Source: Thermocrinis ruber (GTDB taxonomy: Bacteria; Aquificota; Aquificia; Aquificales; Aquificaceae). From it: DNA of 64,000 nt. Shown here piece by piece: positions 40,308 through 60,739 of the stretch. The first letter of the stretch is position 1. Each line of letters begins with the position of its first letter. Made by a program: the position numbers and the translations under genes. The notes under the pieces are model-generated. The model made no database searches, was not told the DNA's origin, and was given only the letters and a program-made list of their open reading frames with translations. Where the stretch lies: contig NZ_CP007028.1 in NCBI RefSeq assembly GCF_000512735.1, positions 744,001 through 808,000 on the forward strand, read 5' to 3'.

Positions 40308-40401
40308 AGCAGAACCTCCTTAATAAGAATATTCAAATATAATTATATGCTTAACAGACGAAAGTGCAAGTTTTTTACTATAATTAAGAGAGGGGTAGAA
40401 A

Positions 40402-40848
40402 ATGGGGTTTTTAAAGAGCCTTTTTGAACATATCAAGGAGATTTTTCTCGGCAAGAAAGAGGAGGGCAAAAAGTTTTTGGGGTATTTCAGGCAAGAGCGG
40501 TTAAAGTTTTTGGAGGAGTTCATAGGCATGGACCTTGGTGCTTACAAAAGAAATACAAGACCCTTTATAGGCTACACGTCGGGCAATTGGCTTTTTGTGT
40601 TATTTTTAACTTCCCAAAAGAAGGGAAGGGCCTATAGAGTGGATATTAGCCTGTGTAAGAAAAGAGGCTGTCCAAGATACAGGTTTGCACCGGAGTCTTA
40701 TCTCTTCTACGACTCAAAACGTCAGGGCTTTTACTTTTACAAATTGCCCAAAAACCTTGTAAAAGATTACGTATTTTGTGGTTATTGTGAGGGTCTAGAA
40801 CACCTTGACAAGTTGAGAATAAAGGAAGTTATTGGTGAAAAAATTTAA
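40402..40848 (+). CDS. Unrecognised four-cysteine protein, paralogue A
   Basis: A 148-residue protein not recognised as a known family. It is a tandem paralogue of the next gene. The shared core is GKKFLG, DLGxxKRxxRPFxGY, a hydrophobic strand WLFVxFLT, and a block GFYxYxLPKxLxKDY ending FCGxCxxLEHxDKL. Cysteines 85 and 90 (LCKKRGC) and 126 and 129 (FCGYC) make a plausible zinc site. A TATAAT box (40379-40384) and a GAGAGGGG ribosome site precede the ATG. It opens the CRISPR-linked block. Its function is unknown. Confidence 0.75.
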   Translation: MGFLKSLFEHIKEIFLGKKEEGKKFLGYFRQERLKFLEEFIGMDLGAYKRNTRPFIGYTSGNWLFVLFLTSQKKGRAYRVDISLCKKRGCPRYRFAPESYLFYDSKRQGFYFYKLPKNLVKDYVFCGYCEGLEHLDKLRIKEVIGEKI

Positions 40849-40871: not shown

Positions 40872-41339
40872 ATGGAGGTGGGATTTTCTAATAGTTTTTT
40901 CCAACAGCTTCAGGAATTAGTCAGACAAAGAAAAGAACTGGAGGGTAAAAAGTTCTTGGGAATATTTGACAAAGCTAATCTCAGGGTTATTGAGGAACTA
41001 TTAAAAACAGACCTTGGCACCCACAAAAGAGAGCGCAGACCTTTTGTTGGTTATTTCTACAGTAAATGGCTTTTTGTATGTTTTTTAACAAGAGAAAACC
41101 ACGGTAATGTTATGAGGGTGGATCTATCCCTTTGCAACAAGAAAAAGGAGTGTAGTAAGCTACAAAACATATCATACATCTTTCAGGATAGAAAAAGGAG
41201 AGGTTTTTACCTGTATAGACTTCCCAAAGACCTTATCAAAGACTATACCTTCTGCGGTTTTTGTAAAGACCTGGAGCATATAGATAAGTTAGATGTTATA
41301 GAGGTGAAAGATGATGGACTACAGAGAGCTTTTAATTAG
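40872..41339 (+). CDS. Unrecognised four-cysteine protein, paralogue B (coupled to the sigma-like gene)
   Basis: A 155-residue paralogue of the preceding protein, with the same LPKxLxKDYxFCGxC and LEHxDKL core. Cysteines 88, 94, 128 and 131 match the putative zinc ligands of paralogue A. TATAAT at 40859-40864 stands only 7 bases before its ATG. The 3' end overlaps the sigma-like gene by 29 bases, which couples its translation to the Calp signalling genes and makes it a candidate component of that system. The family is not recognised. Confidence 0.75.
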   Translation: MEVGFSNSFFQQLQELVRQRKELEGKKFLGIFDKANLRVIEELLKTDLGTHKRERRPFVGYFYSKWLFVCFLTRENHGNVMRVDLSLCNKKKECSKLQNISYIFQDRKRRGFYLYRLPKDLIKDYTFCGFCKDLEHIDKLDVIEVKDDGLQRAFN

Positions 41340-41967
41340 ATTTGCGGAGGGACGAGAAACTCCGCAGGAAAGGGAGTTCATAAAGAACTCCATCGCAAAG
41401 TTTATAAGGCAAGCAAGGAAGGATGAGATCTTTAGAAGAAATTGGGGAGATGACTACTTAGAGGATGTTCTTTCGGAACTGAGAAAAACAATGATCCTTC
41501 AGAAAAGTCTCATAGAAGAAAAAAGCTTTATAAGCTGGCGGTACTTTCTAAGCATAGTTAGGTCTTGCGTGGAGGAGTTTTATAGCAAAATCAGACCATC
41601 GGAGGAGATCCCTTACGAGGTGGCAAAGCCCAAAACAGAACAGGACGAAAGAGATATAGAAGAAACTAAAATTTTTGCCTACGAAGATAGGGTAGAGGAA
41701 AAGGCGGAAGGTCCAGAGTTTTACGAGGTTATGCTGGATCTAATGGACAAAAAGGACTATCCTGTGGTTTGCTATTACCTTTGTAAGGAAGTTCAAAAAA
41801 ACTGCAACAAGCCCAAAGTTATTTCGGAGGCAAACCTGTATAAGCGTTGGGAAAGGTTCAAAAAAAAGCTAAAGGACCATCTGCCCTACGAGCCTTCGGC
41901 AGATGCGGTGAAATACTTTATTGACAGGTTCCTGTCAGAAATTTGCCAAAGGCAGGGTTATATATAA
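41311..41967 (+). CDS. ECF sigma-factor-like protein, CalpS candidate
   Basis: A 218-residue protein with a helical N-terminal half that resembles sigma region 2 (DDYLEDVLSELRKTMILQKSL, then WRYFLSIVRSCVEEFYSKI) and a helical C-terminal half (ANLYKRWERFKKKLKDHLPYE) in the region-4 position. The match to ECF sigma factors is weak on sequence. The stronger reason is context: it precedes a MazF/anti-sigma-like gene and a Lon-SAVED protease, the partners known for CalpS in Sulfurihydrogenibium, also an Aquificales member. ATG 41311 or 41314 follow GAGGTGAAAG. An A8 tract inside stays in frame. If correct, it is freed to redirect RNA polymerase when CalpT is cut. Confidence 0.65.
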   Translation: MMDYRELLIRFAEGRETPQEREFIKNSIAKFIRQARKDEIFRRNWGDDYLEDVLSELRKTMILQKSLIEEKSFISWRYFLSIVRSCVEEFYSKIRPSEEIPYEVAKPKTEQDERDIEETKIFAYEDRVEEKAEGPEFYEVMLDLMDKKDYPVVCYYLCKEVQKNCNKPKVISEANLYKRWERFKKKLKDHLPYEPSADAVKYFIDRFLSEICQRQGYI

Positions 41968-41986
41968 ACCTAAGAGGTGATTGGAT

Positions 41987-42790
41987 ATGAGGATTATTGA
42001 GGAATTGAAAATGTCTCTGAAACTGTACAAGGAGAGCTTAGGAGAGGAGAGGTTAAAGGTCAAGGAAGATAAAAGACAACCCGTTGAGATAGGTCAGGTT
42101 AGAGTCCTCTTTTGGATGCCTAACGAGTATGTTCTTATTTATCACATTGAAGACGAGGGACTTGTTCACGCAGTCCCTCTGACTGTGTGGGTTAGCCTTA
42201 CCACATGTTCTTTAAGGTTGTACATAAAGGACAGAATCTTTGCACCTTTGCCCTTTGTAGTCTATCTAAGAAAAGAGATATTAGAACAAGAAAGTTATCC
42301 TATTGCAATGGTCAGGCAAGAAACTATAGAAAAAGTACTAAGGGCTGTAGATAGATCGCCCACTTGGTCCGCAATAAAACCAAAACGGGAGTTTTTAAAG
42401 CTTGTTTGGAAAAGATACGAAGATATAACCCTAAGTTCTCTATTCTACACGCATATTCAAAGGGAAAAACAGGAAGAAGCAACAAAGGGATTGGTGATCC
42501 AGCTTTTACCCTATGTTATACAAAAATACATACACCAGCTGCAAGCCTACCAACGCGCAGCACAGACAAAGGCACTAAAGGGCAAAAATTGGTTTGGTGT
42601 AGTAGAGGAGGGTAAGGCTGTAATATACTTGCCGGCGGAGTATGAAGGCAAAAAAGTGCGGATAAAGTTCTTTGAAGATGTTATTTACGAAGGAACTGCA
42701 AGCACAAAGGTAGTGCTTGAAAACCTTCCTAACCTACCATCCCACGAATACTTGGAGGAGCATTTACATGTGGAAGTTTTGGGAGATTGA
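41987..42790 (+). CDS. CalpT candidate: MazF-like anti-sigma protein, predicted CalpL substrate
   Basis: A 267-residue protein. Residues about 25-125 have the pattern of a MazF-like beta barrel (PVEIGQVRVLFWMPNEYVLIYHI, LVHAVPLTVWVSL, PLPFVVYLRKEIL). A helical segment follows (about 140-195), then a beta-rich C-terminal domain of roughly 70 residues (NWFGVVEEGKAVIYLPAEYEG). In the described CalpL system, CalpT is a MazF homologue that holds the sigma factor until cA4-activated CalpL cuts it. Position between the sigma-like and protease genes fits. ATG 41987 is preferred to TTG 41981 for its spacing from AGAGGTGA. It overlaps the protease gene by 23 bases. Confidence 0.65.
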   Translation: MRIIEELKMSLKLYKESLGEERLKVKEDKRQPVEIGQVRVLFWMPNEYVLIYHIEDEGLVHAVPLTVWVSLTTCSLRLYIKDRIFAPLPFVVYLRKEILEQESYPIAMVRQETIEKVLRAVDRSPTWSAIKPKREFLKLVWKRYEDITLSSLFYTHIQREKQEEATKGLVIQLLPYVIQKYIHQLQAYQRAAQTKALKGKNWFGVVEEGKAVIYLPAEYEGKKVRIKFFEDVIYEGTASTKVVLENLPNLPSHEYLEEHLHVEVLGD

Positions 42791-44207
42791 GCTGAAACAT
42801 TTTAAAACTCTCTTAGAAAGTGGCAAGCTTGACGACCATATAGAAGGGCTTTATAGCCAATTTTGGGAACTTCCACCATCCCATCAGTATGAGCTTGTTA
42901 AATACTCAAAGGAGAAAGAGGTTTTCCCTTCCATCCAAACCTTTAGAAAAGTCTTTAAGGTTTCCGAAGAGACCGCAGTAAAGTTTTTCAAAGAGAAACA
43001 CATAACATTTGAGTTCCCTGTGGTATCGAGTGATGGCAAGGGAGAGCTAATAAAAGCTGTGGCGATTAAAAATCTTAAGGAAGTTATCACAAACTTAAAG
43101 AACATAAAAAGACATTTCAATCCTATAAAAGAATTTCTCAAGACTGGCTTTGCAGTATTCTTTGATAGGGAATTTGCTGGAGCAAGCTTTCAATTGCCCA
43201 CGGTTTTGAACCTTTATGTAGAAAATCTTCCACAGGATGCCCTATTTATCGGAGCCATAGACAAAAAGGGAAACATAAAATCGGTAGACGGCATTGAGGA
43301 AAAGAAAAAGTTGGCAAAAGAGTTAGGCTTGAGGCTTGTGGAACCATACTATCTTAGCACAGTTGATGACCTAAAAGCTTGGTTTGATGCAGAAAGCTAC
43401 GATGTTCCACTGTACATTACAAAAACCCAAGATAGATGGGAAGGAGAGTTTAAGAGTTTTCTAAAAGCAACGGGCATTTCGAAAGAACAATTAACAAAGC
43501 TTGAGGTGCTAAGTGGTTTAGAAACAAAGCCTATAATAACTGGGCAACTTGCAGGTGATGTTTGGAAAAATGTTTTAGAAGAATTTTGGAGAAGGTTCAA
43601 AGAAACCGAACAAAAACTTCACAACAAGGAGAGATTTCACATAGCCATAAATGGTCCAGTAGCCCTTGCCTTTGCCATTGGAGTTCTCTTTGGAAGCCAA
43701 AAACCCTTTGTCTTTTACCACTATCAAAACAATATCTACCATCCTATAACGGTGGAAAATGTAAGGGAATTAAAGGAAAGGAAAGAAAGCCTTGAAAAAA
43801 TTGAACAACACTTTCAAAAGGGAGGTAAAAGCCTTGTAGTAATGCTATCCTTTGCCCACCACGAGATGGAAAGCGATGTGAAAAATTACATCTCCCGGAA
43901 AGTAGAAAATCCGTCCTATCTCCTTTTGCGAGCCAAAAGTAGTGGAAACATTGCGGTGGAAGATATGAAAGAAGTAGCAACAGAAACCGCAAGCGTAATC
44001 CAAAACATTAGAAGAGAGCACAGTTTTGAAGACTTCCACTTTTTCCTTTCCACTCCCGTGCCCATTGCCTTTATGGGGGGCTTGAGCTTTGGGCACTACG
44101 GCGAAGGCTACATCTATAACTACGCCGGAGGAACTTACGAACCTGTTGTATCCTTCTCCTTTCTCAAAGCACTGAGGGAGGGGAAGTATGTTCTGTCAGA
44201 AGTTTGA
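42768..44207 (+). CDS. CalpL candidate: Lon protease-SAVED fusion, cyclic-oligoadenylate-activated protease
   Basis: A 479-residue protein. Residues about 125-210 look like a reduced Lon protease domain: GASFQLP with Ser140, then ALFIGAIDKKGNIKSVDGIEEK with Lys179, matching the Lon Ser-Lys dyad (GPSAG and GGLKEK) in order and spacing. The C-terminal part, about residues 285-479, is a SAVED domain (HIAINGPVALAFAIG, then FHFFLSTPVPIAFMGGLSFGH), a CARF relative that binds cyclic oligoadenylate. The start is ATG 42768 with GGAGGAG upstream. It resembles CalpL, which oligomerises on cA4 and cleaves CalpT. It stands just before the type III-B operon, the source of cA4. Confidence 0.85.
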   Translation: MWKFWEIELKHFKTLLESGKLDDHIEGLYSQFWELPPSHQYELVKYSKEKEVFPSIQTFRKVFKVSEETAVKFFKEKHITFEFPVVSSDGKGELIKAVAIKNLKEVITNLKNIKRHFNPIKEFLKTGFAVFFDREFAGASFQLPTVLNLYVENLPQDALFIGAIDKKGNIKSVDGIEEKKKLAKELGLRLVEPYYLSTVDDLKAWFDAESYDVPLYITKTQDRWEGEFKSFLKATGISKEQLTKLEVLSGLETKPIITGQLAGDVWKNVLEEFWRRFKETEQKLHNKERFHIAINGPVALAFAIGVLFGSQKPFVFYHYQNNIYHPITVENVRELKERKESLEKIEQHFQKGGKSLVVMLSFAHHEMESDVKNYISRKVENPSYLLLRAKSSGNIAVEDMKEVATETASVIQNIRREHSFEDFHFFLSTPVPIAFMGGLSFGHYGEGYIYNYAGGTYEPVVSFSFLKALREGKYVLSEV

Positions 44208-44246: not shown

Positions 44247-45323
44247 GTGAAAAGGCTAACCTTTGAGCTTGAGTTTATAACTCCCGCCTTTATAGGGGGT
44301 GCAAACCAACAGGCAGAGTTAAGACCTGCCAGCTTTGTGGGACTTTTGCGTTGGTGGTGGAGGGCATTAAAAGGAGAGTGTGATATCAAAAGACTAAGGG
44401 AAGAAGAAATAAAAATCTTTGGCGGTGATGGGAAAATGGCTTCACCGGTGTATTTGAGGGTAGAGGGTGATGTCAGAAAGGGTAATAATCTAATAAACCA
44501 ATGCAGGCTTAATGCAGGGGTGGTATACCTATACCATTTCGTAACAGTCAGAGGAAAGCGAGAGTTTATAGAGCCTGATTCAAGACTAAAGCTAACCCTT
44601 ATTGGGAAGGATGAATTTTTAAAACACTACATTGCATCCTTTTGGGCTTTGGTATTCTTGGGTGGAGTTGGTGCCCGGAGCAGAAGGGGCGGGGGAAACT
44701 TAGCGGTTGTAGGCTACGAGCCAAAAGATTTGGTAGAAGATTTTAAAATCTCTTTTACTCCCACTGACAACCTTCGCGAATGGCTTAAGGAAAACCTAAA
44801 AAGGGCTAAAGAATTAGTAGGTTCTCCAAAGACTCCGTGCGGTGAATATGGTAAATATTCTACTCTTCCCGATCCTAGAAATATTGACTTTAATTCAGTA
44901 TTAATCTTAAGCCCGAAAGAATTCAACAATTGGATTGAAGCTTTAAACGACATAGGAAATGAGTTTATGAAGTTTAGAAAGATAAAAAACGAGCAAAAAA
45001 ACGAACAAAACAAACGAAATGAAGAATGGGTCCTTGATATCGCAGTTTTTGGTCTCCCTCTTAGATATGGCAAAGGCGAAGCTGTAAAGGTAGAGAATAC
45101 GAAAGAAGTTATAACAAGACGTTCAAGCCCTGTGATCATAAAAGTGATAAAAACTCCAAACGGCAAATACAAGTGGATGGCTTTGCGACTCTGGGGGAAG
45201 TTTTTGCCAGATGGAGCAAAGCTTAGATTTAGAGGATATACCAAATTACCATCCTTCAACCTAATTGAAAAGTTTTTCCAAAAGTTTGGAGGAGAGGTTA
45301 AAGAGGAGGGTAAAAATGAATAA
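44247..45323 (+). CDS. cmr1: Type III-B RAMP protein Cmr1
   Basis: A 358-residue Cas7-like RAMP subunit with the family start LTFELEFITPAFIGGANQQAELR. It carries the diagnostic LLRWWWRALKG motif and a glycine-rich GGVGARSRRGGGNL segment. In Cmr complexes it caps the backbone near the 3' end of the crRNA. The start is GTG at 44247, following AGGAGGGGG. A low-complexity Lys/Asn/Gln/Glu loop (KNEQKNEQNKRNEE) is present. The 3' end overlaps the cas10 start by 8 bases. Confidence 0.92.
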   Translation: MKRLTFELEFITPAFIGGANQQAELRPASFVGLLRWWWRALKGECDIKRLREEEIKIFGGDGKMASPVYLRVEGDVRKGNNLINQCRLNAGVVYLYHFVTVRGKREFIEPDSRLKLTLIGKDEFLKHYIASFWALVFLGGVGARSRRGGGNLAVVGYEPKDLVEDFKISFTPTDNLREWLKENLKRAKELVGSPKTPCGEYGKYSTLPDPRNIDFNSVLILSPKEFNNWIEALNDIGNEFMKFRKIKNEQKNEQNKRNEEWVLDIAVFGLPLRYGKGEAVKVENTKEVITRRSSPVIIKVIKTPNGKYKWMALRLWGKFLPDGAKLRFRGYTKLPSFNLIEKFFQKFGGEVKEEGKNE

Positions 45324-47169
45324 ATTGCTGCACATCTTCACATTCTCACCCGTTCAGGGTTTTATCTCAAACTCCCGAAGGCTTTCCGACCTATATCATT
45401 CAAGCCTTTTGCTTTCTACCCTTACGGAAAATCTTATAAAGGTTATAAAAGACCTAAACACAGAAATCATATATCCAGTTCTCGTTGAAGATGGGCAAGG
45501 TTTGGCAAACTATCCCAACAGAATAGTGTTTTTGGCAGATAAATGTATTTGTGAGGACGTGATAAAAAACTTTCAAGAACTTTGGGAAGGGGTATATGAA
45601 ACCGTCTTAAGAAAAGTTTTAGACGAGGTAGGTATCTCAAAGGAAGAGAAAGAAAAAATCGAAGAACAAGCAAAGTTGCACCTTGAAAACTACTTTAGGG
45701 CTTACTGCGAATGCACAAATTCCGAAGAGGTAAAAAAGTGGAAAGAGAAGCTAAAGCAAAATCTGGGAAAAGACTACGATGATTACGCAGTTGCTTACGA
45801 TTGGACAGAAAGAAAGCTTGGAGCGTTGAAGTCTAAAAAGCATTATGAGCCTTTGATGGATGCTTATACCTACAACGGAAAAGAGTATCCCGACGGGTGC
45901 ACCCTTTGTGGAGAAAGGGCACACCTTGCGGTAGATTGGAAAAAGTTAATAGAAAACCTCCAAAAACAAGACCGCATAAAGTACATAAAACACTACCTGA
46001 AGGAAGGCGAAAGACTCTGCGGCGTATGTCTTGTAAAAAGATTTGCTTTTTACTGCCTTAAAAGACAAACCTTTCCATCAGTTCATGATATAGCCAACGC
46101 AAAGTTTAAAGAGGAACTGAAAGATTTTGAACAAAGGCATAAAGACCGTGCAAGTGAGCTAAAGTCCTTGCTTCAACAGTACATGGGCGAAGAAAAACCG
46201 AGAGATCACCTCTGGGAATACAACGCAGAGCTTTTTGATATATAAGAACTTGAGAGAATAAAAAGAGAAGAAGAAGACTTAAGTCTTATGATTGATGATT
46301 TAATTAGAGAACTTCGTTGGATATACAACAACGAGCTTTTGAGCAAGCCTTCCAAAAACTACTTTGCCATTATCATTTCCGACGGGGACAGCATGGGAGA
46401 TTGGCTTGGACTGAAGAGTGAAAGAAGGAAAGATAAATTAGAAAGAGCCTTTCACGAAAAATTCTCCAAAGCCCTTTCCGATTATGCAAGGGAAATAAAA
46501 AGTTTGGAGAGCAAAGAAAAGTTTGGCTTAAAAATTGTTTATGCAGGTGGGGATGATGTGCTTGCAGTGGCAGATTTGAGAGAGTTTTTAGACTTTGCGG
46601 AAAAGCTAAATCCCACCTTTAAGAATAAAGTAGGGAAGGATGCTTCCGTCAGCGCAGGAATAGTTATAGGGCACCAAAAGGACAATCTTGCCTACCTGTT
46701 AAATGAAGCAAGAAAGGCAGAGAAAAAGGCAAAAAGCGTAGAAGGGAAGTCCGCCTTTTGTATAACCATCATCCCAAGGGGAGGAGGACCCGTAAGCTTT
46801 TGGGCAAAATGGGAGTTTTTGAGCCTATTTAAAGATACGGTTGAGTACTTTGAAAGGGAAATCATAGGAGACAGGACTGTCTACGACATAAAGGATATAG
46901 CTGGTAAACTTGAAGTAAGTAAAGAAAAGCCTATAGAAATCGTTTTAGCCCTTTTGAGGGGAATGCTGAAAAGAAGGGTAGATGAAAATAAGCTAGAGGA
47001 ACACTTAAGAAAGGAAAAAAGGGTTTTTATTGAGGAATACTTGGAACGATTGAGGGAGCTTTTAAAAATTTCAGACCTTGAAAACCTTGCCAGCCTTTTC
47101 TACACTGCACGCTTTGTAGCAAAGGAAAGGAGGGAAAAGAAACATGAAACTGTTGGAGCTAACACCTGA
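45316..47169 (+). pseudogene. cmr2: cas10/cmr2, interrupted by an in-frame TAA (or split gene)
   Basis: Cas10 is the large type III subunit that makes cyclic oligoadenylate when target RNA is bound. The first 309 residues begin LLHIFTFSPVQGFISNSRRLSDLY (palm 1) without an HD nuclease domain and include a zinc finger (CTLCGERAH with RLCGVC). TAA at 46243-46245 then stops the frame. The same frame continues with convincing protein (ELERIKREEEDLSLMIDD), including ISDGDSMGDW and GGDD (46546-46557) in the second palm domain. The next ATG is 46288. The locus may be a dead gene, a two-piece Cas10, or a sequence error. It is followed by cmr3 with a 26-base overlap. Confidence 0.85.
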
Positions 47170-48124
47170 GGACGCACTAACTTTTGGGAGCTTGAAAAAC
47201 TTCACTGCCGGTGAGTCCCACTATCAACAAACCACCTTCCCACCGCCCATAATGAGGTTTTTCTCCTTGGGTAAAGAACAAGGCTTAAAGCCTTTAAAGA
47301 TTGCGGGGGTTTTTATAAAGCATCAGGAAGAGCTATTTCTCCCATTGCCAGCTGATTGCTTGAAAAAGAGAAAGGAAAAAACAGAAAAAATCTACGTGCC
47401 AAAATGGGATGAAGAACTAAAAAGACCCTTTATAGAACCTTTTGAAAGAGAAAAGGATAAGGTGGAACTTTTAAACCTTGAACAGGCAGAGGGTTTTTGT
47501 AGTTTTTCGGACTTTCGGGAGCACTATGCCAAAGGTGAAAACTTTGAGGTAAAATACAAAGAGATTTTCCAAGAGGAGGAAAGGGTGGGGGTAAAGCTAA
47601 ATTACGACAAAAGGGTTTCGGAGGATAGGCATTTATATTCAAGGATTTACCTTAGGTTTAAAAACTCCCACATTGTGCTTTTGGTGGAAGATGATATAAA
47701 TAAAGCTTTCTTTTCTACTGTAGGAGGAGAAAGAAAGTATGCCAAAATCAAGCCTGCTGAAGACGAACTTATAAACTTTTTGAAAGAGTCTGTTGATATC
47801 AAAAGAGACAAACTTTACAAATTCTACTCCACCACGCACCTTTATGCAGATTTGAAAAGCGAAATCAAGCTAAACGGAAATATAAAGTTCAAGGTTGAAT
47901 GGGTATCCTCCTTGCCACCCGAGTGGGTATCCGGCTACAAAAAACCTTTCCTTTACATGCTAAGACCGGGAACAGTGCTGTGGCTTAGGGCTTTGGAGGA
48001 TGGGATGTGTGAAAGGTTGTGTCAGGTTTCTTCCGGTAGTGAGGTTATTAAGTACAACGGAGGAACAAAGGATTTACTTAAAAGAGGTTGGAATAGTGGA
48101 ATACTTTTGGAGGTGGGACAATGA
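47144..48124 (+). CDS. cmr3: Type III-B RAMP protein Cmr3
   Basis: A 326-residue Cas5-like subunit that holds the crRNA 5' tag next to Cas10. The start LLELTPEDALTFGSLKNFTAGESH and following PPPIMRFFSLGK match Cmr3. C-terminal FLYMLRPGTVLWLRALEDG and a glycine-rich SGSEVIKYNGG follow. The ATG overlaps the end of the cas10 frame by 26 bases, with GGAAAGGAGGG upstream. The 55 bases after its stop hold a 16-codon frame without recognisable content. Confidence 0.88.
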   Translation: MKLLELTPEDALTFGSLKNFTAGESHYQQTTFPPPIMRFFSLGKEQGLKPLKIAGVFIKHQEELFLPLPADCLKKRKEKTEKIYVPKWDEELKRPFIEPFEREKDKVELLNLEQAEGFCSFSDFREHYAKGENFEVKYKEIFQEEERVGVKLNYDKRVSEDRHLYSRIYLRFKNSHIVLLVEDDINKAFFSTVGGERKYAKIKPAEDELINFLKESVDIKRDKLYKFYSTTHLYADLKSEIKLNGNIKFKVEWVSSLPPEWVSGYKKPFLYMLRPGTVLWLRALEDGMCERLCQVSSGSEVIKYNGGTKDLLKRGWNSGILLEVGQ

Positions 48125-48179
48125 GTTTTGAGTTTTACGAAAAAATAAAAAACGGTGAAATAAAGGTATAGGAGGGTTA

Positions 48180-49133
48180 ATGATGAGAAAAGAGTATTAT
48201 TTACTTAAGGTGCTAACTCCACTGCACATAGGTGCGGGTCAAGGGCTTGGGCATGTAGATTTGCCAATAGTTAGAGAAGCCCACACAAACTTTCCCTACA
48301 TTCCCGGCACGAGCCTAAAGGGAGCTTTGAGGAACTTGGAGATTAAACAAGTGGCAAGGGCAAGAGGAGAAAAACCATCTCAAGTGGAAGAAAGGCTAAC
48401 AGACAAAGATAAATTTGATCCGAAAGATATAGATATTCTCAGGCTTGCAAAGATCTTTGGCACTGCAGGAGAAGTAGCAGAGCGAGACAAAGAGGCATTA
48501 GAGAAAGGCAAGGAAGTAGGGGCAGGTAAAGTCCTATTTTCAGACGCTTTTATCGTGCTTTTCCCTGTCAAATCTGCAAAGGGGATATTCTCTTTAACTA
48601 CATGCCCTTATGTTATAAACCGGTTTTTTGAACTTTTGGGTATTGATCAAAGAGTGGAAGATGTGCCCGAGGGTAAGGTAAAGGTTCTGAACACAAAAGA
48701 TCACAAAAATCTAATAAACAACAACAAACTATTGCTTGAGGAGTTCGTGTTTGAAGCAGAAGAATCTGAAGAGCTTAAAAAATTTGTAGAACTTGTGGGC
48801 GTTTTTGTAGGAGAAGAGAATAAACGAAGGATCGTATGCGTGAATGATACGGACTTTATGGACTTTGTAAGCAACTACACGGAAGTGCGAACTCACATAA
48901 AGATAAATTTAGATACTGGCACTATAGAAAAAGAAAAGGGGGCATTATGGACCGAGGAGTATGTGCCCGCGGAGTCTGTTTTTGCCTTTAGCCTTGTATT
49001 CTTGGAAGAAATTAATGAAGAAATTAATTATGGTCGTGAGAAAATTAGTTATAGTCCACCTCCCACTTTCCACCTTGGAGGAGATATTACCACCGGCAAG
49101 GGCTTTGTAAAGGTTCAAAAGTTGGAGGTATAA
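48180..49133 (+). CDS. cmr4: Type III-B RAMP protein Cmr4
   Basis: A 317-residue Cas7-type backbone subunit that cleaves target RNA at 6-base steps. It begins YYLLKVLTPLHIGAGQGLGHVDLPI and has the family motif FPYIPGTSLKGALRN. A catalytic-loop region is KVLFSDAFIVLFPVKS with its aspartate, and the C-terminus is LGGDITTGKGFVKV. The start is ATG 48180 or 48183 after GGAGGG. It is followed by cmr5 with a 2-base gap. Confidence 0.93.
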   Translation: MMRKEYYLLKVLTPLHIGAGQGLGHVDLPIVREAHTNFPYIPGTSLKGALRNLEIKQVARARGEKPSQVEERLTDKDKFDPKDIDILRLAKIFGTAGEVAERDKEALEKGKEVGAGKVLFSDAFIVLFPVKSAKGIFSLTTCPYVINRFFELLGIDQRVEDVPEGKVKVLNTKDHKNLINNNKLLLEEFVFEAEESEELKKFVELVGVFVGEENKRRIVCVNDTDFMDFVSNYTEVRTHIKINLDTGTIEKEKGALWTEEYVPAESVFAFSLVFLEEINEEINYGREKISYSPPPTFHLGGDITTGKGFVKVQKLEV

Positions 49134-49135
49134 CA

Positions 49136-49607
49136 ATGAAGAGCAAAGTTCAAGAGCTGGCACAGTTGGCTTACAAGTGTGTAAAGCAAGTAAAAGACGA
49201 AGCTGAAAAAATGGACAAAAAGGGCAAAGATTTTGCATCAAGATATTTATCTTACGCAAAAAAAATTGCCATCCATGATAATCTACAATGGACTTTTGAC
49301 AACGGTTACCTTTGCAAAAGCTAAAGCTAAAAAAGCATCTACGAAAGCTGAAGTTGAAGAAGAAAAAAAGGGTGAAAGGGAAAAAGGAGAAAAAGTTGAA
49401 GCACTGGCTTGGAAAATGTTGCTGGGGCATTTGGAAAAGTTCCTTAATGAAGAAGGAATAAAGCAGGAAAATAAGGATTTTATAGAGTTCCTTTCGGAGC
49501 TTGAAGTTCAAGAATACAGGCTTATAACCAAGAGGGTTTTAGACTTTTCTCTGTGGTTAAAAAGAATAGCAGAAGGGGAGATAGAAGATGAAGGTAAGGG
49601 AGATTAA
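49136..49607 (+). pseudogene. cmr5: cmr5 with a frameshift at an A8 tract
   Basis: Cmr5 is the small helical subunit lining the Cmr complex. The first frame gives MKSKVQELAQLAYKCVKQVK to RYLSYAKK, then fails and stops at 49322-49324. The continuation lies in another frame as LPSMIIYNGLLTTVTFAKAK to KRIAEGEIEDEGKGD, which is exactly where Cmr5 homologues carry the sequence KKLPSMI. The switch occurs at eight As (49258-49265); seven As would give one frame. A Lys/Glu-rich insertion follows. It could be a true mutation, be rescued by polymerase slippage, or be a sequencing error. The end overlaps cmr6 by 20 bases. Confidence 0.85.
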
Positions 49608-50640
49608 AGATCTTTTGTTTAAAGTTGATAATAAAGAACTTTCATCTAATGTTGATAACAAAAAATCCTCATCTCAGGTTGATAATCCCGCACTGCTTTT
49701 TAACAAGCTTTTGATTTTGCAATACATATGTAAATTTTTCCAAAATCAGGATCTAACAGAGCAATGTAAAGATAAGAAAGGTAAAGACAAAGGTAAAGAC
49801 AAAAAAGATGAAGATGTAAGCAAGCAAGAATATATAAAATCTTTCATAGAAACTTTTAATGGAAAAAACCCTTTTGATGATCTTGAGGGAAAAAGACCTT
49901 TTCAACCACCCGAGCTGGATTGTGTTATACAAGAGAGCTTTAAGCTTAAAACCGCCTACAGGCTTGTAATCGGGGCAGGTTATCCATCCTTTATTGAAAA
50001 CGGCTTTTTGTTCCACCATGTTTATGGCATTCCTTACATTCCCGGGGAGACCTTAAAAGGACTTGCAAGAGCTGTTTTTATACTCTCAGTGGTAGAGGCT
50101 ATAAAAGGAGAAACTAAGCTTTCCAAGATAGAGGAAGTGCTTTCAGAGGAAGCCGAGAAAGAAATTTCAGAGGAAGCCAAAGGTATACTCCATCAAATCC
50201 CAGAGAAAATTAACATAATTTTAGACGATTACACCATAGAAAACCCAGTGGAGACCTTTAGAAAAATCTTTGGTTCCAAGAAAAGAAGAGGGCAGGTAAT
50301 ATTCTTTGATGCTTATCCTGTTGATTTTAATCCATCAGAACATTTTGAAGCAGACATCATGAACCCTCATTACGGAAAGTATTACCAATCCCAATCGGAA
50401 AAGGAAGCACCTTCTGATTGGCTAAGTCCTACTCCCATACACTTTTTAGCGTTAAAAGAGGGCATAGTCTTTGAGTTCAACTTGGGGCTTGCACCTCTTG
50501 AACTGATGGAAGATAATGAAGAGAGACTTTTATTGGAAACTGCAAGGAAATTGCTTGAAGTGGGGCTTGAAAACTTTGGAGTAGGAAGTAAAAAGCGTAA
50601 AGGATACGGATGGTTTTCAGATAAAACCGTAGGGAGGTAA
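49588..50640 (+). CDS. cmr6: Type III-B RAMP protein Cmr6
   Basis: A 350-residue RAMP subunit at the 3' side of the crRNA. The core has YRLVIGAGYPSFIENGFLFHHVYGIPYIPGETLKGLAR and the C-terminal GVGSKKRKGYGWF motif. The N-terminal 75 residues are unusual: a 9-residue (27-base) unit beginning VDN is repeated (VDNKELSSN, VDNKKSSSQ, VDNPALL), then comes a Lys/Asp-rich loop (KDKKGKDKGKDKKDED). No frameshift was seen. The ATG lies inside the cmr5 end. Confidence 0.9.
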   Translation: MKVREIKDLLFKVDNKELSSNVDNKKSSSQVDNPALLFNKLLILQYICKFFQNQDLTEQCKDKKGKDKGKDKKDEDVSKQEYIKSFIETFNGKNPFDDLEGKRPFQPPELDCVIQESFKLKTAYRLVIGAGYPSFIENGFLFHHVYGIPYIPGETLKGLARAVFILSVVEAIKGETKLSKIEEVLSEEAEKEISEEAKGILHQIPEKINIILDDYTIENPVETFRKIFGSKKRRGQVIFFDAYPVDFNPSEHFEADIMNPHYGKYYQSQSEKEAPSDWLSPTPIHFLALKEGIVFEFNLGLAPLELMEDNEERLLLETARKLLEVGLENFGVGSKKRKGYGWFSDKTVGR

Positions 50641-50643
50641 GCC

Positions 50644-52102
50644 ATGAGTGTTAAAAGGATAATTTATCAAATTGGAAGGTTTGAGAGTTCTATTGATGAA
50701 AAAGTAAACTTTGAAATTGAAATTAATGATAAACCCTATTCATGTGAACTATCTTCCTTTGCACTCAAGAAGTATTTTGGAGAATCTACTAAAGTTATCC
50801 TTGTTTATCCTGTTAGTATTTTACTAAATGAAAAAGCCTTAAAAGGAATAGAGAATAAACTAAATAAGAACCTTGCGGGAGAAAGAAAGGATGAAGAGGA
50901 TCTTAAAAGCTTTTATGAAAAAATAGAAGGTATTGTAAAAAAACCTGGAGAAAAGGAAAAATATATAAAAAAAATCCCTGGGAATATCTAAAGGAACATC
51001 CACACTCAAAAAAGCTGATGATTTTATAGTAATTCCGAGCATTGGTGAATTCTCAGGAGAGAAATTTTCTTCTCCATTAGGAAACATAGTCCTAAGGATC
51101 TTAATTGATATGATTGAAAGATATAAAAATGAACCCTTTGATGAAATGTATTTAGATATTTCAAGTGGGCATAACATATACACCTATGCTTTGGTTGAAG
51201 CCGGTAGATTGTTTTTAACTCTTATGAAGCTTGAAGACTTCCTAAAGGAGAAAGATATAAAAGTTTTTATAGCTATATCTGAGCCAATAACCGCAGGATC
51301 TGGTCAAGATAAAAATAGTCAAGATAAAAAGTATTATAAGATCTTCAAGGATTTTCAATTAGATGTTAAGGGATTCTTCTACTTTCCTGAAAAGCCACAA
51401 GAAAACAGCGAAAATGCATTCTCAAAATACGCTAATAAATTAAGTGAGACTATTAAAGGTAAAGAGGATAGAGAACTTAAACGAAAGATAATGAACATGC
51501 TTTACAAAACCTATTTGTTCTATTCAGCCCTCAGGAACAATTTGCCACTGGTAGTTTACTATTTATGCACCCTTGAAGAATATAGATATACAGAAAATGA
51601 TGTTAAAAACTTGCTTGAAGAAATAGTAAATCTTTTAAAGCGAAGATTAGACGAAAATCTGAAGGAATCACCCACTGATTTAAATTTTGAAGATTTAAGA
51701 AAATTGTTTATAATTTTAGGATTAGCTATAGGAATTATAAGGGTGTTGGAGAAACGTGAGATATGTAAAGGGATTAAAGAAGAAGTGGAAGTGAATTTGA
51801 AGGATATAAGACGATTATTTGCTGAGGAGGAAAGTAGTATTTACGGATATTTTGGGCTTAAAACTAACGTTCCGTATTTACACCAAGAAATTCGGAATAA
51901 CTTTACAGAAAAAGACGAAAAGAATTTAATTACAAATGAGTGGAAACTGTTGAAATATATATTAGAAGAAAAACCTAACGAGAAAGATACACAAATCCAT
52001 CCACGCAATGTTTTAGCGCACTGTGGCTTTGAGAGGAACATAACAGAGGTGAGAAAGACTGATGATGGGGATATTCTTAATAAAATATACGAGCTACTAT
52101 AA
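50644..52102 (+). pseudogene. csx1: csx1 (CARF-HEPN ribonuclease) with a frameshift at an A8 tract
   Basis: Csx1 is a cA4-activated RNase. Frame one (50644-50991) gives the start of the CARF domain and ends GEKEKYIKKIPGNI. The true continuation lies in the next frame: KKSLGISKGT, then ADDFIVIPSIGEFSGEKF and LDISSGHNIYTYALVEAGR of CARF, and a C-terminal HEPN domain with RNVLAH (RxxxxH). The switch coincides with eight As at 50967-50974; seven would restore the frame. After the stop at 52102 another frame reads KEIVKEKGKEKIKEY to 52216, so a second shift near 52075 may also have cut the natural C-terminus. Confidence 0.83.
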
Positions 52103-52228: not shown

Positions 52229-52690
52229 ATGGAACTACTACTCCTTCTAATCATTGCCATAATACTCCTTGCATGGAGGATAAACAGCGAGATGTCTGCC
52301 ATTAAACCGTTAAGCCATCCGTTAATTCAAAAACAGCAAGAAGACCAGTCTAATTTTGTTCCTACTGAGGATGAAGAAGACAGGATGAGAAAGCATAGTT
52401 CGGCAGATGATAGCTACAATGACTGGTTCGCTGATAGTTTCTCCAGTTCAAGCTTTTTGGATGATGATGATAGGTCAAGCAGTTCTGACGACGATATTTA
52501 CACAGATCCGTCTTATTGCCATCTTCCGGGAAACATATACTACCATATATGCCACGATGACAATGATAAGTCAAGCATTTTTGACAACCACTGGAGCAGT
52601 TCTAGCTGGAATGATTGGACTTCAAGTGGGTCTGATGATTGGGGAAGTAGTTCGTGGGACAGCTGGAGCAGTTCCAGTTGGGATAGCTAA
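52229..52690 (+). CDS. Membrane-anchored Ser/Asp/Trp-rich low-complexity protein
   Basis: A 153-residue protein, not recognised. One N-terminal membrane helix (LLLLIIAIILLAWRI) is followed by a very acidic, serine-rich region (SSSSFLDDDDRSSSSDDD). A middle patch has two cysteines and three histidines (YCHLPGNIYYHICHDD). The tail consists of Trp/Ser/Asp repeats (SSSSWNDWTSSGSDDWGSSS). The composition is unlike its Lys/Glu-rich neighbours. It lies between the type III-B and I-B modules, behind csx1. It may be an exported, divalent-metal-binding or adhesive protein, but no function can be assigned. Confidence 0.65.
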   Translation: MELLLLLIIAIILLAWRINSEMSAIKPLSHPLIQKQQEDQSNFVPTEDEEDRMRKHSSADDSYNDWFADSFSSSSFLDDDDRSSSSDDDIYTDPSYCHLPGNIYYHICHDDNDKSSIFDNHWSSSSWNDWTSSGSDDWGSSSWDSWSSSSWDS

Positions 52691-53632: not shown

Positions 53633-54688
53633 ATGAAAGGAATGCTAACACTAACTCTCATAACCCAGAGGGCTACAAGCCTAAACTACGGAGAAAACAT
53701 AGGGAATGTATCTATCCTTAAAAAGCTTTCATTAGGAGACAATTCTCAGATTACCTATGTGTCCGACAAGGCACTCAAATACGACATAAGGAGAAAAGGT
53801 AAGGAAGAGAAAGGATGGAGACTTTTGGATGAGAAGGTGAAGGAGCTCATTGAAGGTTCAATTGTTCAGGTGCCTAAAGAAACAAAAGGTAAGAAAAAGA
53901 AATCAAAAGAATCCACGGAAACCGAAATGCAAGACGTTTTGGATGTTGATGAATTTGCAAAAAAATTAATACGTGAATACCAAGAGTTTGACTTGTTTGG
54001 AGGGCTTTTTACTAATCTCATAAGGGCAAATGGTGAAAGCATAGGACTATCTTACGGAGACAGCGTCAAAAGAACCGCACCCGTTAAAATCACCTACGCG
54101 TATTCCACCTCAAAATTCCAAGGAGACATGGACTTTATGAACAACATAGAAGCTTACAACAGATACATAAGGCATATAGAACAAAAAGACGCCCAAGTAA
54201 TAACCCAATCCGAACAGCATACCGCACACTATTACTACACTATAGCCATAGACTTGGACAGAATAGGAGTATGGGAAACTGAAAATGGAACTGAGGAAGT
54301 GATTCCGGCAGAAGAAAAGGCAAAAAGAGTGAAGGACCTTTTGGACATAATAAGAACCCTTTCAAGGCAAATAAGAGGGAGATATGAAAATCTCTCTCCC
54401 ATCTTTGTTATAGGTGGGATTTATAAAGTAAAAAATCCGTTCTTTATGGGATGCGTAAGTGCAAAAGAAACTGAGGACGGCAAACTGCTTTTAGACGTTA
54501 ACAGACTTCTTGACTGCAAGGGAATAATACCTGAAGAGGAAAGAGCTAACACCCTTTGCGGATTGCTTTCTGGATTCTTTGCCAACGAGCAGGAGATAAG
54601 AGAAAAGCTAAATTGCAAGAGTGTAGAGGAGGTCTTTGAAGAGCTAAAGAACAAGGTGGGGGAGATCTATGGAGTGTCTAAGGGTTAA
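53633..54688 (+). CDS. cas7: Type I-B Cascade backbone protein Cas7 (Cst2/DevR family)
   Basis: A 351-residue Cas7 protein that coats the crRNA spacer in Cascade. Family traits are LTLTLITQRATSLNYGENIGN at the start and FDLFGGLFTNLIRANGESIGLSYGDSVKRTAPV. The autoregulator-like motif HTAHYYYTIAIDLDRIG is also present. A Lys-rich insertion (TKGKKKKSKESTETE) occurs near residue 90. It opens the type I-B operon and overlaps the Cas5-Cas8 fusion gene by 20 bases. Confidence 0.9.
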   Translation: MKGMLTLTLITQRATSLNYGENIGNVSILKKLSLGDNSQITYVSDKALKYDIRRKGKEEKGWRLLDEKVKELIEGSIVQVPKETKGKKKKSKESTETEMQDVLDVDEFAKKLIREYQEFDLFGGLFTNLIRANGESIGLSYGDSVKRTAPVKITYAYSTSKFQGDMDFMNNIEAYNRYIRHIEQKDAQVITQSEQHTAHYYYTIAIDLDRIGVWETENGTEEVIPAEEKAKRVKDLLDIIRTLSRQIRGRYENLSPIFVIGGIYKVKNPFFMGCVSAKETEDGKLLLDVNRLLDCKGIIPEEERANTLCGLLSGFFANEQEIREKLNCKSVEEVFEELKNKVGEIYGVSKG

Positions 54689-56822
54689 ACTCTACACTCC
54701 CACGGGGATTTTCAAAAACCCTCTTTCCATAAAGGGTATAGAGATCTATCCGCTTCCGCCCTACTCCACCATAATAGGGCTGATTTACCGGGCGATGGGA
54801 AGAAAGTGGAACGGAGAGTATTTCCAAATCTCTATTCAAGGGGATTATCAAGCTATATACCGGGACTATGTGTGGTTTAAAAAACATAACTTCAAAGACA
54901 AAGAGCTTAGCAGACTCCCATTACAGGTTCCAATTCTCTATAACCTGTGGCTTTTGATCCACATAAAGGCAAGCGAAGAACTTTTGAATGAAATTGAGAA
55001 CGGTTTAAAAGAGCCAAAGGAACTTCTCTTTCTGTCGGGAGGAGAGTATCCGGTGAAGGTGGAAGAGGTAAAAAGGGTAAAGTGCTTTGAAAAGCGTCTT
55101 TCTGAAGAAGAAACAATAACACTAAACTATAACGCATACATACCAAAGGAGTTTAAGGAAAAGATTAGCCTTTCAGGCACCGGTGAAGGAGTACTTTTTA
55201 GCCTCTCTTACTTTTACAAGAATTCCCAAAAGCCAAAAACCTACTCTTGGATTGATGCCTACTACCTTCAAAAGGGAACTGAAATTTGCGGTTCTTTAAT
55301 CCTTGATGAAGATAACAATCCAGTTTTCTTGGCTGAGCCGACAACAAAGGAAATAAAAAAGTCTGAAGGAGAAGAATACGTTAGGTTTTATGCAGGAAAT
55401 TGGCTTATGGCAAGTGCATGCGTGGGAGTTTTGAAGGTTTTGGAAAATGCAGGGGAGGATATAAAAAAATACGTGGAAGAGAGAACTCTAAAAATACCAA
55501 AAAGCTTGTGGGAAAATCTGCCTGAGCTTTACGCGGATTATCTTCTAAAGGACAAGGAAAGTGTTAAGAGATCGTTGGAAGATTCATACAGACAAAAGGC
55601 TGCTGATAGCAATCCATACAATACACTTATATACAGCAGATTAAGAGATTTTCATAGCAATAGCCCGTTTACAAACCAATCTCACGAATATATAAAAAGG
55701 CTTAAAGGGGTTTATTCAGAAAATCTTGAAGAAGTCTTGGGAAAAGTTAAAGAAAGCTTTTTAGAAGCCTACAAAAAACTACTCGCTACAACCAAAGACC
55801 TTTCAAGCATATGCTTTTTCTGTCATGAAAGACACGCCAAAAACTATGTAGATGCTACTACTTTTACTCCACTGTTTGCAAGCCTTGAAACAGTCAGAAA
55901 CTTTATATGGGATCCAATACCCATATGTAAGGAGTGTGAATTTCTACTTTACTTTGCAAGTGCAGGATTTTACAGGTACGTAGGAAAGTATCTTTTCGTC
56001 TATGTTCCTGATGATCTTTTGGAAACTTACAGGCTAAACCTAATTTTAAGCACAGAAAAGGAGATAGAACAGGAAAAACTTAGTAAAGTATGGAGCGTTG
56101 TAAGGTATGTTTTAGACTTGGAAAAACAAAAGAGCAGTTGGGTTTTACAAAACATTTACTTTGTGGAGATAGAAATGGTGGGAGATGCTACTGCAAACAT
56201 ATACTCCTTTCATATAAGCCCAAACTTAGCCAAAGCCATCCGTAAACTGATAGACCATTATCCCAAAAACCTTCAAGACATCTTTTCTGAATTTCTTTTC
56301 TACATCTACACGGGGCGATCCCTTTATGAATTTCTATTTCTTATGCTGTCAGGATTTATCAGAAAGGAAAGTTATAAAAAATTACAAGGAGGAACCATTG
56401 AAAGCAAAATTTTGCAGGCTGGAAGAAATATGAAATACATAAGTCAAAATTTGCTTTTCTTTATAAACTTTCAGGAGGTGCTAAACATGAACGAGCAAAA
56501 AGGTTACATTGATCGGGCTTTTTGGGCAGGAAGAGAACTAAAGAAACTCTACAAAGAAAACGAAAGCACACAGAAAAAGCTTGAACCACTTACATACAGA
56601 CTGCTTGAAGCTATAAGAAGAAAGGATAAAGAATACTTCATCCACAACCTGATAAGGGCATACCTTGAGGTGGAAAAAGAAATTCCTTATCTTTTCAAGG
56701 AAGCTTTGGATGACAAAAACTTTAGCATGATTGCCTACGCCTTTTTGATAGGACTAAACTCTGAGGAGAAAAACAAAGAAGAACAAGCTAACGATTATGG
56801 AGAAAATTCAGAATCTGCTTAA
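54669..56822 (+). CDS. Cas5-Cas8b1(Cst1) fusion protein
   Basis: One uninterrupted 717-residue frame joins two Cascade subunits. Residues 1 to about 222 are Cas5 (LRVKLYTPTGIFKNPLSIKG, YPLPPYSTIIGLIYRAMG), which caps the crRNA 5' handle. Residues about 238-717 are the large subunit Cas8b1/Cst1 (YAGNWLMASACVGVLKVLE) with the CxxC...CxxC pair at Cys382, Cys385, Cys420 and Cys423. The two are normally separate genes with cas8b1 before cas7. The domain junction lies near base 55350. The fusion would fix 1:1 stoichiometry at the tag end. The stop overlaps cas3 by 26 bases. Confidence 0.85.
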   Translation: MECLRVKLYTPTGIFKNPLSIKGIEIYPLPPYSTIIGLIYRAMGRKWNGEYFQISIQGDYQAIYRDYVWFKKHNFKDKELSRLPLQVPILYNLWLLIHIKASEELLNEIENGLKEPKELLFLSGGEYPVKVEEVKRVKCFEKRLSEEETITLNYNAYIPKEFKEKISLSGTGEGVLFSLSYFYKNSQKPKTYSWIDAYYLQKGTEICGSLILDEDNNPVFLAEPTTKEIKKSEGEEYVRFYAGNWLMASACVGVLKVLENAGEDIKKYVEERTLKIPKSLWENLPELYADYLLKDKESVKRSLEDSYRQKAADSNPYNTLIYSRLRDFHSNSPFTNQSHEYIKRLKGVYSENLEEVLGKVKESFLEAYKKLLATTKDLSSICFFCHERHAKNYVDATTFTPLFASLETVRNFIWDPIPICKECEFLLYFASAGFYRYVGKYLFVYVPDDLLETYRLNLILSTEKEIEQEKLSKVWSVVRYVLDLEKQKSSWVLQNIYFVEIEMVGDATANIYSFHISPNLAKAIRKLIDHYPKNLQDIFSEFLFYIYTGRSLYEFLFLMLSGFIRKESYKKLQGGTIESKILQAGRNMKYISQNLLFFINFQEVLNMNEQKGYIDRAFWAGRELKKLYKENESTQKKLEPLTYRLLEAIRRKDKEYFIHNLIRAYLEVEKEIPYLFKEALDDKNFSMIAYAFLIGLNSEEKNKEEQANDYGENSESA

Positions 56823-59004
56823 AGAACTTTGGGCAAAGGATGACGGAACCAACATAAGAGAGCACACAGATAAGCTTTTAGAAAACCTACAAAAACTCAG
56901 GGATCACTACAGAAAGGAAATAGAAGAGCTTATACCAAAGTGTCTTCCTGCTAAGCTAAAAGAAAAATTCTGGGAAATCTTAGAGCTTGCCTGTGAGTAT
57001 CACGATTATGGCAAAATACACTGTAAATTTCAGGAAAAGCTTGGAAACAAAAGCGTAAAACCTATAAAGGGACTTCCGGAGGTAAGGCACAATCTTTTAT
57101 CTCCTGTGTTTGTGAATGTGGAGGATGAACTTATCCGAAAAATTGTTAGGCTTTTGGTTTTGCACCATCATCCTGTGGAAGTGGAAGAGGTTTCTATAGA
57201 AAGTGTGGAAAGAGTGTTAAAAGAGGAGTTTAAATTTGAGAACAACCCTATAAGGTTTATGCTGAGAAAGAAGGAGGAGGATTATTTAAGGGACAATGTT
57301 GCAAAGATGTTTAAAATTCCCGTGGATGGGCTTATCCCATATTACCGCCTTTTAAAAGGACTACTTCTTCGTATAGACCATTCAAGCAGTTCAAAACATG
57401 CGCAGGACGTAGAGGATATACCGCCTGATGATACATTAAGCTTTGTGGATGAGTTTTTCAGACAAAAGGGTAGTTCTCCCAATCAGATGCAAACCTTTGT
57501 CCGAGAAAACAGAGACAAAAATCTTGTGATAATAGCACCAACAGGTGCAGGTAAGACGGAAGCGGGCTTTATCTATATTCAAAAGAAAGGCTTTTTTATG
57601 TTGCCTTACAGAGTTTCAGCCAATGGCATCTATATGAGGGCAGAGGGAATGTTTAGAAATTATGCAGGACTTTTACACTCAAGTGCCTTAAGCTACGTGT
57701 TTGAAAGGGAAGAAGACAGAGAGGACATCCAAAATAATCAAGAAGGCGTAGCTTTTCTTAACTACTTCCTTTCTCGCAACTTTGCCAAGCCCATAATCAT
57801 ATCCACTCCAGACCAACTTATGCACTTTGTTTTTAGGTATAAGGGCTTTGAAAAGTACTATGCAACTGCCCTTTACTCAAGGCTTGTGATTGATGAACTT
57901 CAATCCTACGACCCTATCACATTAGCTTTTATAGTGCAAGGTTTGGAGGTTTTAGCCCAAAATGGTGGAAAGTTTTTGGTTATGACAGCAACATTCCCTG
58001 AGTTTTTGAGGGAAAGGTTTGAAAGAATGGGAGTGGAGTTTAAAACTTTCAACACCCAGAAAAAACCATACCATCATGTTCAGGTTATAGACGATAGCAT
58101 AGACAATTATGTGGAGAAAATGATAGAGCTTTCCCAGAAGGCTAAGGTGCTTGTGGTGGTAAACACTGTAAGAAAGGCAATAGAGTTAAAGAAAAAATTT
58201 AAAGAGGCTGGACTTCAAAACGTAAAGCTACTACACAGCAGGTTCATACTCAAAGACAGAAAGGAAAAGGAAAAAGAGATAATGAAATTCTTTAATAGCC
58301 AAGAAAAGGGCTTGTGGATTACCACTCAGCTTGCGGAGGTCTCTTTGGACCTTGATGCGGACTATCTTTTCACGGAACTTTCCACTGCGGACAGCTTGAT
58401 ACAGAGGATAGGAAGGTGCAACAGAAAAGGACAAAAACCAACCAATCAACCTAACGTGTTTATATTCACAAAAGACTGTTCAGGGGTGGGTCCTGTGTAT
58501 TACAAACATCTGCACGAGAGCACTTTAAGGAACCTTAAAGACGGGCTGTGGGATTGGAATTTTAAATGGGATCTTGTGGAAAAGGTTTATTCAAAGTCCG
58601 CTTTGTATGGCACCAAATATTGGGAGAAGTTTAGAAAGGCAGAGAACTACATAAAGAGCCTTTGGGAGGGAGCGGATAGTCTTATAAGGAGCAAATCGGA
58701 GGCACAAGATCTTTTTAGGGATATAAACGCAGTGCAGGTTATTCCCGAAAAGTTTAGAGAAAAGGTAGAAAGCCTAATTCAAGAGTGGGAAAAGGCTAAG
58801 GGAGATTTCGTAAGGAGAGCAAAGCTTTTAAGCGACATCCTTGAATACAGCTTTTCTCTTCCCGCATGGTCTATTAGAGAGTTAGAAAAACAGAAGATCC
58901 ACGATAGACTTGGCATATACTATATAGAGGGAGACTACAACGAAGACACGGGCTTTGTGCTAAAGCCTACCGCAGACACAGAGGAGGTGGAGAACATTAT
59001 ATAA
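56797..59004 (+). CDS. cas3: CRISPR-associated helicase-nuclease Cas3 (HD plus helicase)
   Basis: A 735-residue effector of type I interference. The N-terminal HD nuclease has REHTDKL (His23), CEYHDYGKIH (His69, Asp70), VRHNLLSP and LHHHPVE. The superfamily-2 helicase has Walker A IIAPTGAGKTEAG at about residue 246, Walker B VIDELQSYDP, TATFPEF (motif III), and QRIGRCNRKG (motif VI). Unlike split Cas3'/Cas3'' systems the domains are fused in one chain. It is recruited by Cascade to nick and degrade target DNA. It starts inside the end of the Cas5-Cas8 gene. Confidence 0.95.
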   Translation: MEKIQNLLKELWAKDDGTNIREHTDKLLENLQKLRDHYRKEIEELIPKCLPAKLKEKFWEILELACEYHDYGKIHCKFQEKLGNKSVKPIKGLPEVRHNLLSPVFVNVEDELIRKIVRLLVLHHHPVEVEEVSIESVERVLKEEFKFENNPIRFMLRKKEEDYLRDNVAKMFKIPVDGLIPYYRLLKGLLLRIDHSSSSKHAQDVEDIPPDDTLSFVDEFFRQKGSSPNQMQTFVRENRDKNLVIIAPTGAGKTEAGFIYIQKKGFFMLPYRVSANGIYMRAEGMFRNYAGLLHSSALSYVFEREEDREDIQNNQEGVAFLNYFLSRNFAKPIIISTPDQLMHFVFRYKGFEKYYATALYSRLVIDELQSYDPITLAFIVQGLEVLAQNGGKFLVMTATFPEFLRERFERMGVEFKTFNTQKKPYHHVQVIDDSIDNYVEKMIELSQKAKVLVVVNTVRKAIELKKKFKEAGLQNVKLLHSRFILKDRKEKEKEIMKFFNSQEKGLWITTQLAEVSLDLDADYLFTELSTADSLIQRIGRCNRKGQKPTNQPNVFIFTKDCSGVGPVYYKHLHESTLRNLKDGLWDWNFKWDLVEKVYSKSALYGTKYWEKFRKAENYIKSLWEGADSLIRSKSEAQDLFRDINAVQVIPEKFREKVESLIQEWEKAKGDFVRRAKLLSDILEYSFSLPAWSIRELEKQKIHDRLGIYYIEGDYNEDTGFVLKPTADTEEVENII

Positions 59005-59005
59005 C

Positions 59006-60461: not shown

Positions 60462-60739
60462 GGGTAATACTCTTTTACGATATAGACACCACAGAAAAGG
60501 AAGGACAAAGAAGACTTCAGAGGGTTTTAAAAACCGCAAGAAAGTATTTAAACCATGTTCAAAAATCAGTATTTGAGGGAAATCTGAACATTTCGAGCAT
60601 AGAAAGACTAAAACACGAAATGCTAAGAGTGGTAGATAAGGAAAAGGATTCCCTGATAATTTATATCCTTGATGACAATGCTAATTACAAAAGGGAAATA
60701 TTAACAAACGTCAAAGACCCTACGGATAACCTGTTATGA
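60458..60739 (+). CDS. cas2: CRISPR adaptation protein Cas2
   Basis: A 93-residue ferredoxin-fold protein with the classical start RVILFYDIDTTEKEGQRRLQRVLK, including the first-strand aspartate, then FEGNL and the C-terminal IIYILDD segment. It bridges two Cas1 dimers. The start overlaps the cas1 stop by 4 bases. The cas6 gene follows after 7 bases. Confidence 0.94.
   Translation: MRVILFYDIDTTEKEGQRRLQRVLKTARKYLNHVQKSVFEGNLNISSIERLKHEMLRVVDKEKDSLIIYILDDNANYKREILTNVKDPTDNLL

Follow-up and report, generated by a model that had tools for sequence, protein, structure and literature searches.

The window analysed here is a stretch of 64,000 nt from the complete genome (1,521,037 bp) of Thermocrinis ruber (NZ_CP007028.1, positions 744,001-808,000). 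It carries a five-gene Calp operon, consisting of two copies of a gene for a small MazF-fold protein followed by calpS, calpT and calpL, with a type III-B (cmr) CRISPR module immediately downstream (Table 1). The calpS-calpT-calpL trio had been proposed in the earlier note and its ORFs are present in the order given, S-T-L. This order recurs in more than 30 loci of the Aquificota, including a genome matching Sulfurihydrogenibium YO3AOP1. The interval assigned to the system, 41311-44207, does contain the trio, but the operon begins two genes earlier and the MazF-like genes were missed. Likewise, the description of the genes as overlapping holds for calpT and calpL (23 bp) but not for calpS and calpT, which are 19 bp apart; the upstream MazF-like copy 2 shares 29 bp with calpS. 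The trio was also said to lie next to csx1 and cas10. The cmr module indeed adjoins it, whereas the cmr genes separate it from csx1, which lies 6.4 kb downstream. Regarding the start codons, the ATG is the most likely start for CalpT, with the ORF being open from a TTG at 41981. For CalpL, counting from the TTG at 42717 instead of the ATG would turn the dyad into S157/K196.

Table 1. Features of the T. ruber Calp locus and the adjoining type III-B module (positions in the window)
Feature	Position	Strand	Evidence
Small MazF-fold protein copy 1, 148 aa, first operon gene	40402..40848	+	jackhmmer family, dN/dS
Small MazF-fold protein copy 2, 155 aa; R56, T73 and four Cys conserved	40872..41339	+	homologue upstream of calpS, 44/45 loci
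CalpS, ECF-sigma-like, 218 aa	41311..41967	+	structure model, profile match to YO3AOP1 calpS
CalpT, degenerate MazF-like domain and CalpT10-like C-terminus	41987..42790	+	PADLOC CRISPR-T, 8b0u match
CalpL, Lon-SAVED protease, dyad Ser140/Lys179 from ATG 42768	42768..44207	+	PDB, PF18145, PADLOC
cmr1 of the adjoining type III-B module	44247..45323	+	family model
cas10/cmr2, split by in-frame TAA, GGDD in second half	45265..47169	+	family model
Remaining cmr cluster, cmr3 to cmr6	47144..50640	+	cmr3 and cmr6 by family model
csx1 (CARF-HEPN), frameshifted at A8 run near 50968	50644..52102	+	model matches of two halves

Taken alone, the trio is a further example of the already known Calp system. 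In the PDB sequence search, CalpL matches the SsCalpL structures 7qda/8b0r (E 2e-22) and 9eyi (E 2e-15). Since the S-T-L order also recurs across the Aquificota, the resemblance is far beyond chance. The Lon-SAVED fusion with its Ser-Lys dyad, as read earlier from the ORF, is corroborated by the SAVED model PF18145 (E 3e-22) and PADLOC CRISPR-Lon (7e-118). The dyad is invariant in 18/18 homologues and aligns with S152/K193, which we take to be the protease dyad of SsCalpL. Similarly, the window CalpL has R350, K353 and H382 at the positions that align with R361, K364 and H392, the ring-nuclease residues of the Ss protein studied in PMC11417357. The closest solved structure to the SAVED domain is AcrIII-2 (9r8s), with an E-value of 1e-57 compared to 2e-22 for SsCalpL. 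According to the available portion of PMC12751052, this is a viral SAVED ring nuclease acting as an anti-CRISPR and, unlike the window CalpL, it has no Lon domain. A nine-member CalpL alignment served to retrieve related loci. Searches of viral contigs and of phage and plasmid records found no copy of CalpL.

The middle gene, previously called MazF/anti-sigma-like, proves to be calpT: its product matches PADLOC CRISPR-T (E 3e-19), and the CalpT family profile, which includes the YO3AOP1 sequence, finds the CalpT10 of PDB 8b0u. With hhalign, CalpT aligns to MazF collinearly over 84 columns (E 0.003); the catalytic Arg of MazF has no conserved counterpart, while the Thr/Ser is kept in 29/29 members. 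When CalpT and CalpS were each used as a single query against PDB sequences, nothing useful was returned. Non-circular profiles, built from the window's own taxonomic family only, without Sulfurihydrogenibium, were used to search 442 ORFs; these match calpS (5e-20) and CalpT (1.7e-5) of YO3AOP1.

The first gene of the trio had been described as sigma-like, with the absence of a sigma-2-like fold named beforehand as the result that would speak against it. The N-terminal domain of the structure model (pLDDT 75) is helical; for residues 1-96, VIA places sigma region 2 of SigC, sigma E and others at the top of its matches (Z 6.7, 82 residues, 3.0 Å). This gives moderate support for the predicted fold, and the opposing result named in advance was not obtained. 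Region 4 is tentatively assigned from the sequence pattern. Foldseek alone yields no significant match for either CalpS or the small MazF-like protein, and a viral structure library likewise gave none. An HTH regulator instead of a sigma factor might be considered, as PADLOC labels the family HTH (PDLC01153, 7e-117), Pfam Sigma70_r2 matches only 1/29 family members and NCBIfam sigma70-ECF stays under its cut-off (E 0.026), although nearly the whole profile is covered. However, the weak matches all point to sigma factors, as do the first seven rows of Foldseek and almost all leading rows of VIA, and the protein is a homologue of the CalpS studied in YO3AOP1, which makes an HTH regulator very improbable. 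Individually moderate, these lines of evidence together with the CalpS homology support a sigma factor. A scan for a CalpS promoter consensus upstream of the operon was at chance level and therefore no CalpS regulon is proposed. By eye, a TATAAT box is seen shortly 5' of the first start codon in several operons (window 40320-40402 and the upstream regions of homologues), which suggests a vegetative promoter rather than CalpS autoregulation.

What the locus adds beyond the known trio is the conserved upstream MazF-like gene. Among the 45 loci having upstream sequence, calpS is immediately preceded by a homologue in 44, YO3AOP1 included. In a first set, all 33 loci carry it (27 by jackhmmer and 6 by profile, E up to 4e-7); in a second set, selected to contain odd cases, it is found in 11 of 12, ten by profile and L133 by position and motif. 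L129 is a calpS locus without an upstream MazF-like gene. A 4-nt stop/start overlap with calpS is frequent. Based on this conserved operon position, the small MazF-fold protein belongs to the same unit as CalpS, CalpT and CalpL. Copies 1 and 2 are 49-51% identical, with a dN/dS of 0.09-0.16 for copy 1 among four close relatives and 0.09-0.35 over both copies; across close relatives, all genes tested (both small genes, calpS and calpT) are under purifying selection. The gene has no Pfam, NCBIfam or PADLOC model, and searching viral contigs as well as phage and plasmid records revealed no copies of it. It also accompanies another Lon-SAVED subfamily, deeply diverged and about 565 aa in length.

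Several loci deviate in their details. Five apparent orphan MazF-like genes (G056, G027, G105, G110 and G058) have calpS adjoining and mostly lie at contig ends, and that of L125 ends at the contig edge. One complete genome (1,743,135 bp) has a lone 80-aa remnant (L121:8604-8846) without calpS, calpT or calpL. In the diverged operon type (L126, L127, L128, L130, L131 and L133), the gene order is unchanged and the MazF-like gene is part of it; both types are apparently present in some genomes. One operon, intact in other respects, has its calpS divided into two ORFs of 146 and 75 aa (L053:6647-7314). In L134:6247-8638, a calpT-calpL pair adjoins a further cas gene cluster, with neither calpS nor the MazF-like gene detected there.

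In the features compared, namely its length of 496 residues and the residues named in the available portion of PMC11417357, the L063 CalpL corresponds to PDB chains 7qda/8b0r. L063 was therefore used as the reference locus for the experimentally studied Sulfurihydrogenibium sp. YO3AOP1 system (PMC11417357). Like the window, it holds calpS, calpT and calpL in this order beside a cmr-type module, and the Lon dyad, the ring-nuclease residues and the CalpT10 domain are common to both. Its MazF-like gene (L063:5293-5838) is recognised by the non-circular profile at E 0.003 and by a wider profile at 5e-12, and is duplicated in the window's clade. Calp is described as three-component in the available portions of PMC11417357, PMC12751052, PMC11229360 and PMC9704534, which do not mention an upstream MazF-like gene, yet both loci carry one upstream of calpS; the primary 2023 CalpL report lies outside this comparison. 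Within the genus of the window, the type III-B-linked Lon-SAVED protein CalpL of Thermocrinis jamiesonii appears in PMC12751052 as a BLAST hit, without a description of its operon partners in the part available. A locus whose CalpL is 91% identical to that of the window is from Thermocrinis sp.

The AlphaFold2 model of the small protein has a pLDDT of 83 and a pTM of 0.77. Each of the 50 VIA matches listed is to MazF, Kid, CcdB or the CptN toxin related to them; the best (94 aligned, rmsd 3.0) has a Z of 6.4, which is below 8 and thus moderate, in a range flagged by VIA as possibly a common arrangement. Among the 46 family sequences, R56, P57 and T/S73 (numbering of copy 2) are each kept in 46/46, and C88, C94, C128 and C131 are nearly invariant. 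The catalytic pair of MazF is formed by Arg and Thr (PMC8086154), with which R56 and T73 are aligned in a register set by motif order and not by superposition. Since the listed matches form one superfamily and R56-P57 and T/S73 are retained, a MazF fold is predicted, with moderate support. On the sequence level, the hhalign match of the family to real MazF is weak (best E 0.013, with reversed controls at 0.3-0.7), and HMMER finds no match between PemK_toxin PF02452 and the family. Therefore, the protein is called MazF-like and not a member of the PemK family. It shares with MazF/PemK/Kid toxins the predicted fold, the Arg-Pro at the start of a strand and the Thr/Ser in the next strand, but has an extra N-terminal helix and four conserved cysteines, which suggest a metal site. 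It also adjoins calpS, whereas these toxins are linked to an antitoxin gene. An origin as a CalpT or CalpS paralogue was rejected, as hhalign gives no support for it.

Altogether, we consider it likely that the locus encodes a five-gene Calp cascade in which the MazF-fold protein is controlled by the CalpS/CalpT complex. As described in the available portion of PMC11417357, in Sulfurihydrogenibium cA4 binds SAVED, CalpL oligomerises and CalpT is cut, followed by release of CalpS with a CalpT fragment and degradation of cA4 by SAVED. By homology, the same chemistry can be inferred for the T. ruber genome. In a resting cell, CalpT would form a complex with CalpL in which it holds the sigma factor CalpS. 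Once foreign RNA is seen by the type III-B complex, Cas10 would make cA4, which on the SAVED domain would cause CalpL to stack and its Lon domain to cut CalpT. The freed CalpS would then redirect RNA polymerase and the cA4 would later be destroyed by the SAVED domain. The small MazF-fold protein would most likely be kept inactive by the CalpS/CalpT complex and be freed or activated by the same cleavage, then acting as a MazF-type ribonuclease or as a MazF-fold partner. CalpT is itself odd in having the look of a MazF toxin and the role of an anti-sigma factor (PMC11417357, available portion). With a MazF-fold gene retaining the Arg/Thr pair beside calpS in nearly every Aquificota Calp locus, the laboratory model included, the system may have more parts than the three published, and the gene is a specific candidate effector or partner for the existing Calp assays.

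The gene is thus probably an overlooked Calp component, either a MazF-type RNase or a partner held by the complex. In its most specific form, which we put forward tentatively, it would encode a MazF-type RNase with a Cys cluster that is silenced by CalpS/T/L, such that cA4 triggers both a sigma programme and an RNA-cutting toxin via one proteolysis. Another, somewhat unlikely explanation is that the trio forms the whole effector and the MazF-fold protein is a second regulator without RNase activity, e.g. a zinc-binding anti-sigma factor or a chaperone of CalpT or CalpS. The four cysteines are reminiscent of zinc-binding regulators and the frequent 4-nt overlaps with calpS suggest tight coupling. 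Moreover, CalpT is a precedent for a MazF fold turned regulator (PMC11417357, available portion), the conserved catalytic Arg being absent from it. Unlike CalpT, however, the small protein keeps both MazF catalytic positions throughout the family, which speaks against a pure binding protein, as such a protein would not need them.

The condition of the adjoining module bears on whether the favoured five-gene cascade operates in this strain. Both cas10 and csx1 were found as claimed before, but the earlier note missed a stop in the former and a frameshift in the latter. An in-frame TAA at 46243-46245 splits cas10/cmr2, while the gene is uninterrupted, with sense codons at this site, in L033 and L032 (90% and 67% identity). 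The split gene encodes the only Cas10 above the family cut-off in the genome. In csx1, the reading frame shifts at the A8 run (window 50960-50990) and each half matches a separate part of the CARF-HEPN models; within the genus, no close csx1 was found for comparison. Because of the stop in the sole Cas10 and the csx1 frameshift, signalling through the cascade may be impaired in this strain. It could even be that the system is decaying here, with the Calp operon left orphaned and lacking a source of cA4, a possibility to be taken seriously though not the one we favour. Against decay, the Calp genes are intact, with purifying selection on both small genes, calpS and calpT. Furthermore, the second half of Cas10 keeps GGDD and an ATG at 46288 lies just downstream of the stop, so it could work as two chains, and at the A8 run a sequencing error could account for the frameshift, or slippage could overcome it. 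Hence, either the module is impaired, or Cas10 functions as two chains and csx1 is rescued by slippage, or the interruptions are sequence errors.

Further downstream, window 53633-63300 contains type I-B cas genes (cas7 and a fused cas5-cas8b-like ORF), other cas-like ORFs, one of them resembling cas1, and a CRISPR array of which the repeat reads FNSTQYIRN in one frame. Between csx1 and this region, a Ser/Asp/Trp-rich ORF is located at 52229-52690; an ORF just downstream of calpL in another locus (L054:9579-9992) starts similarly.
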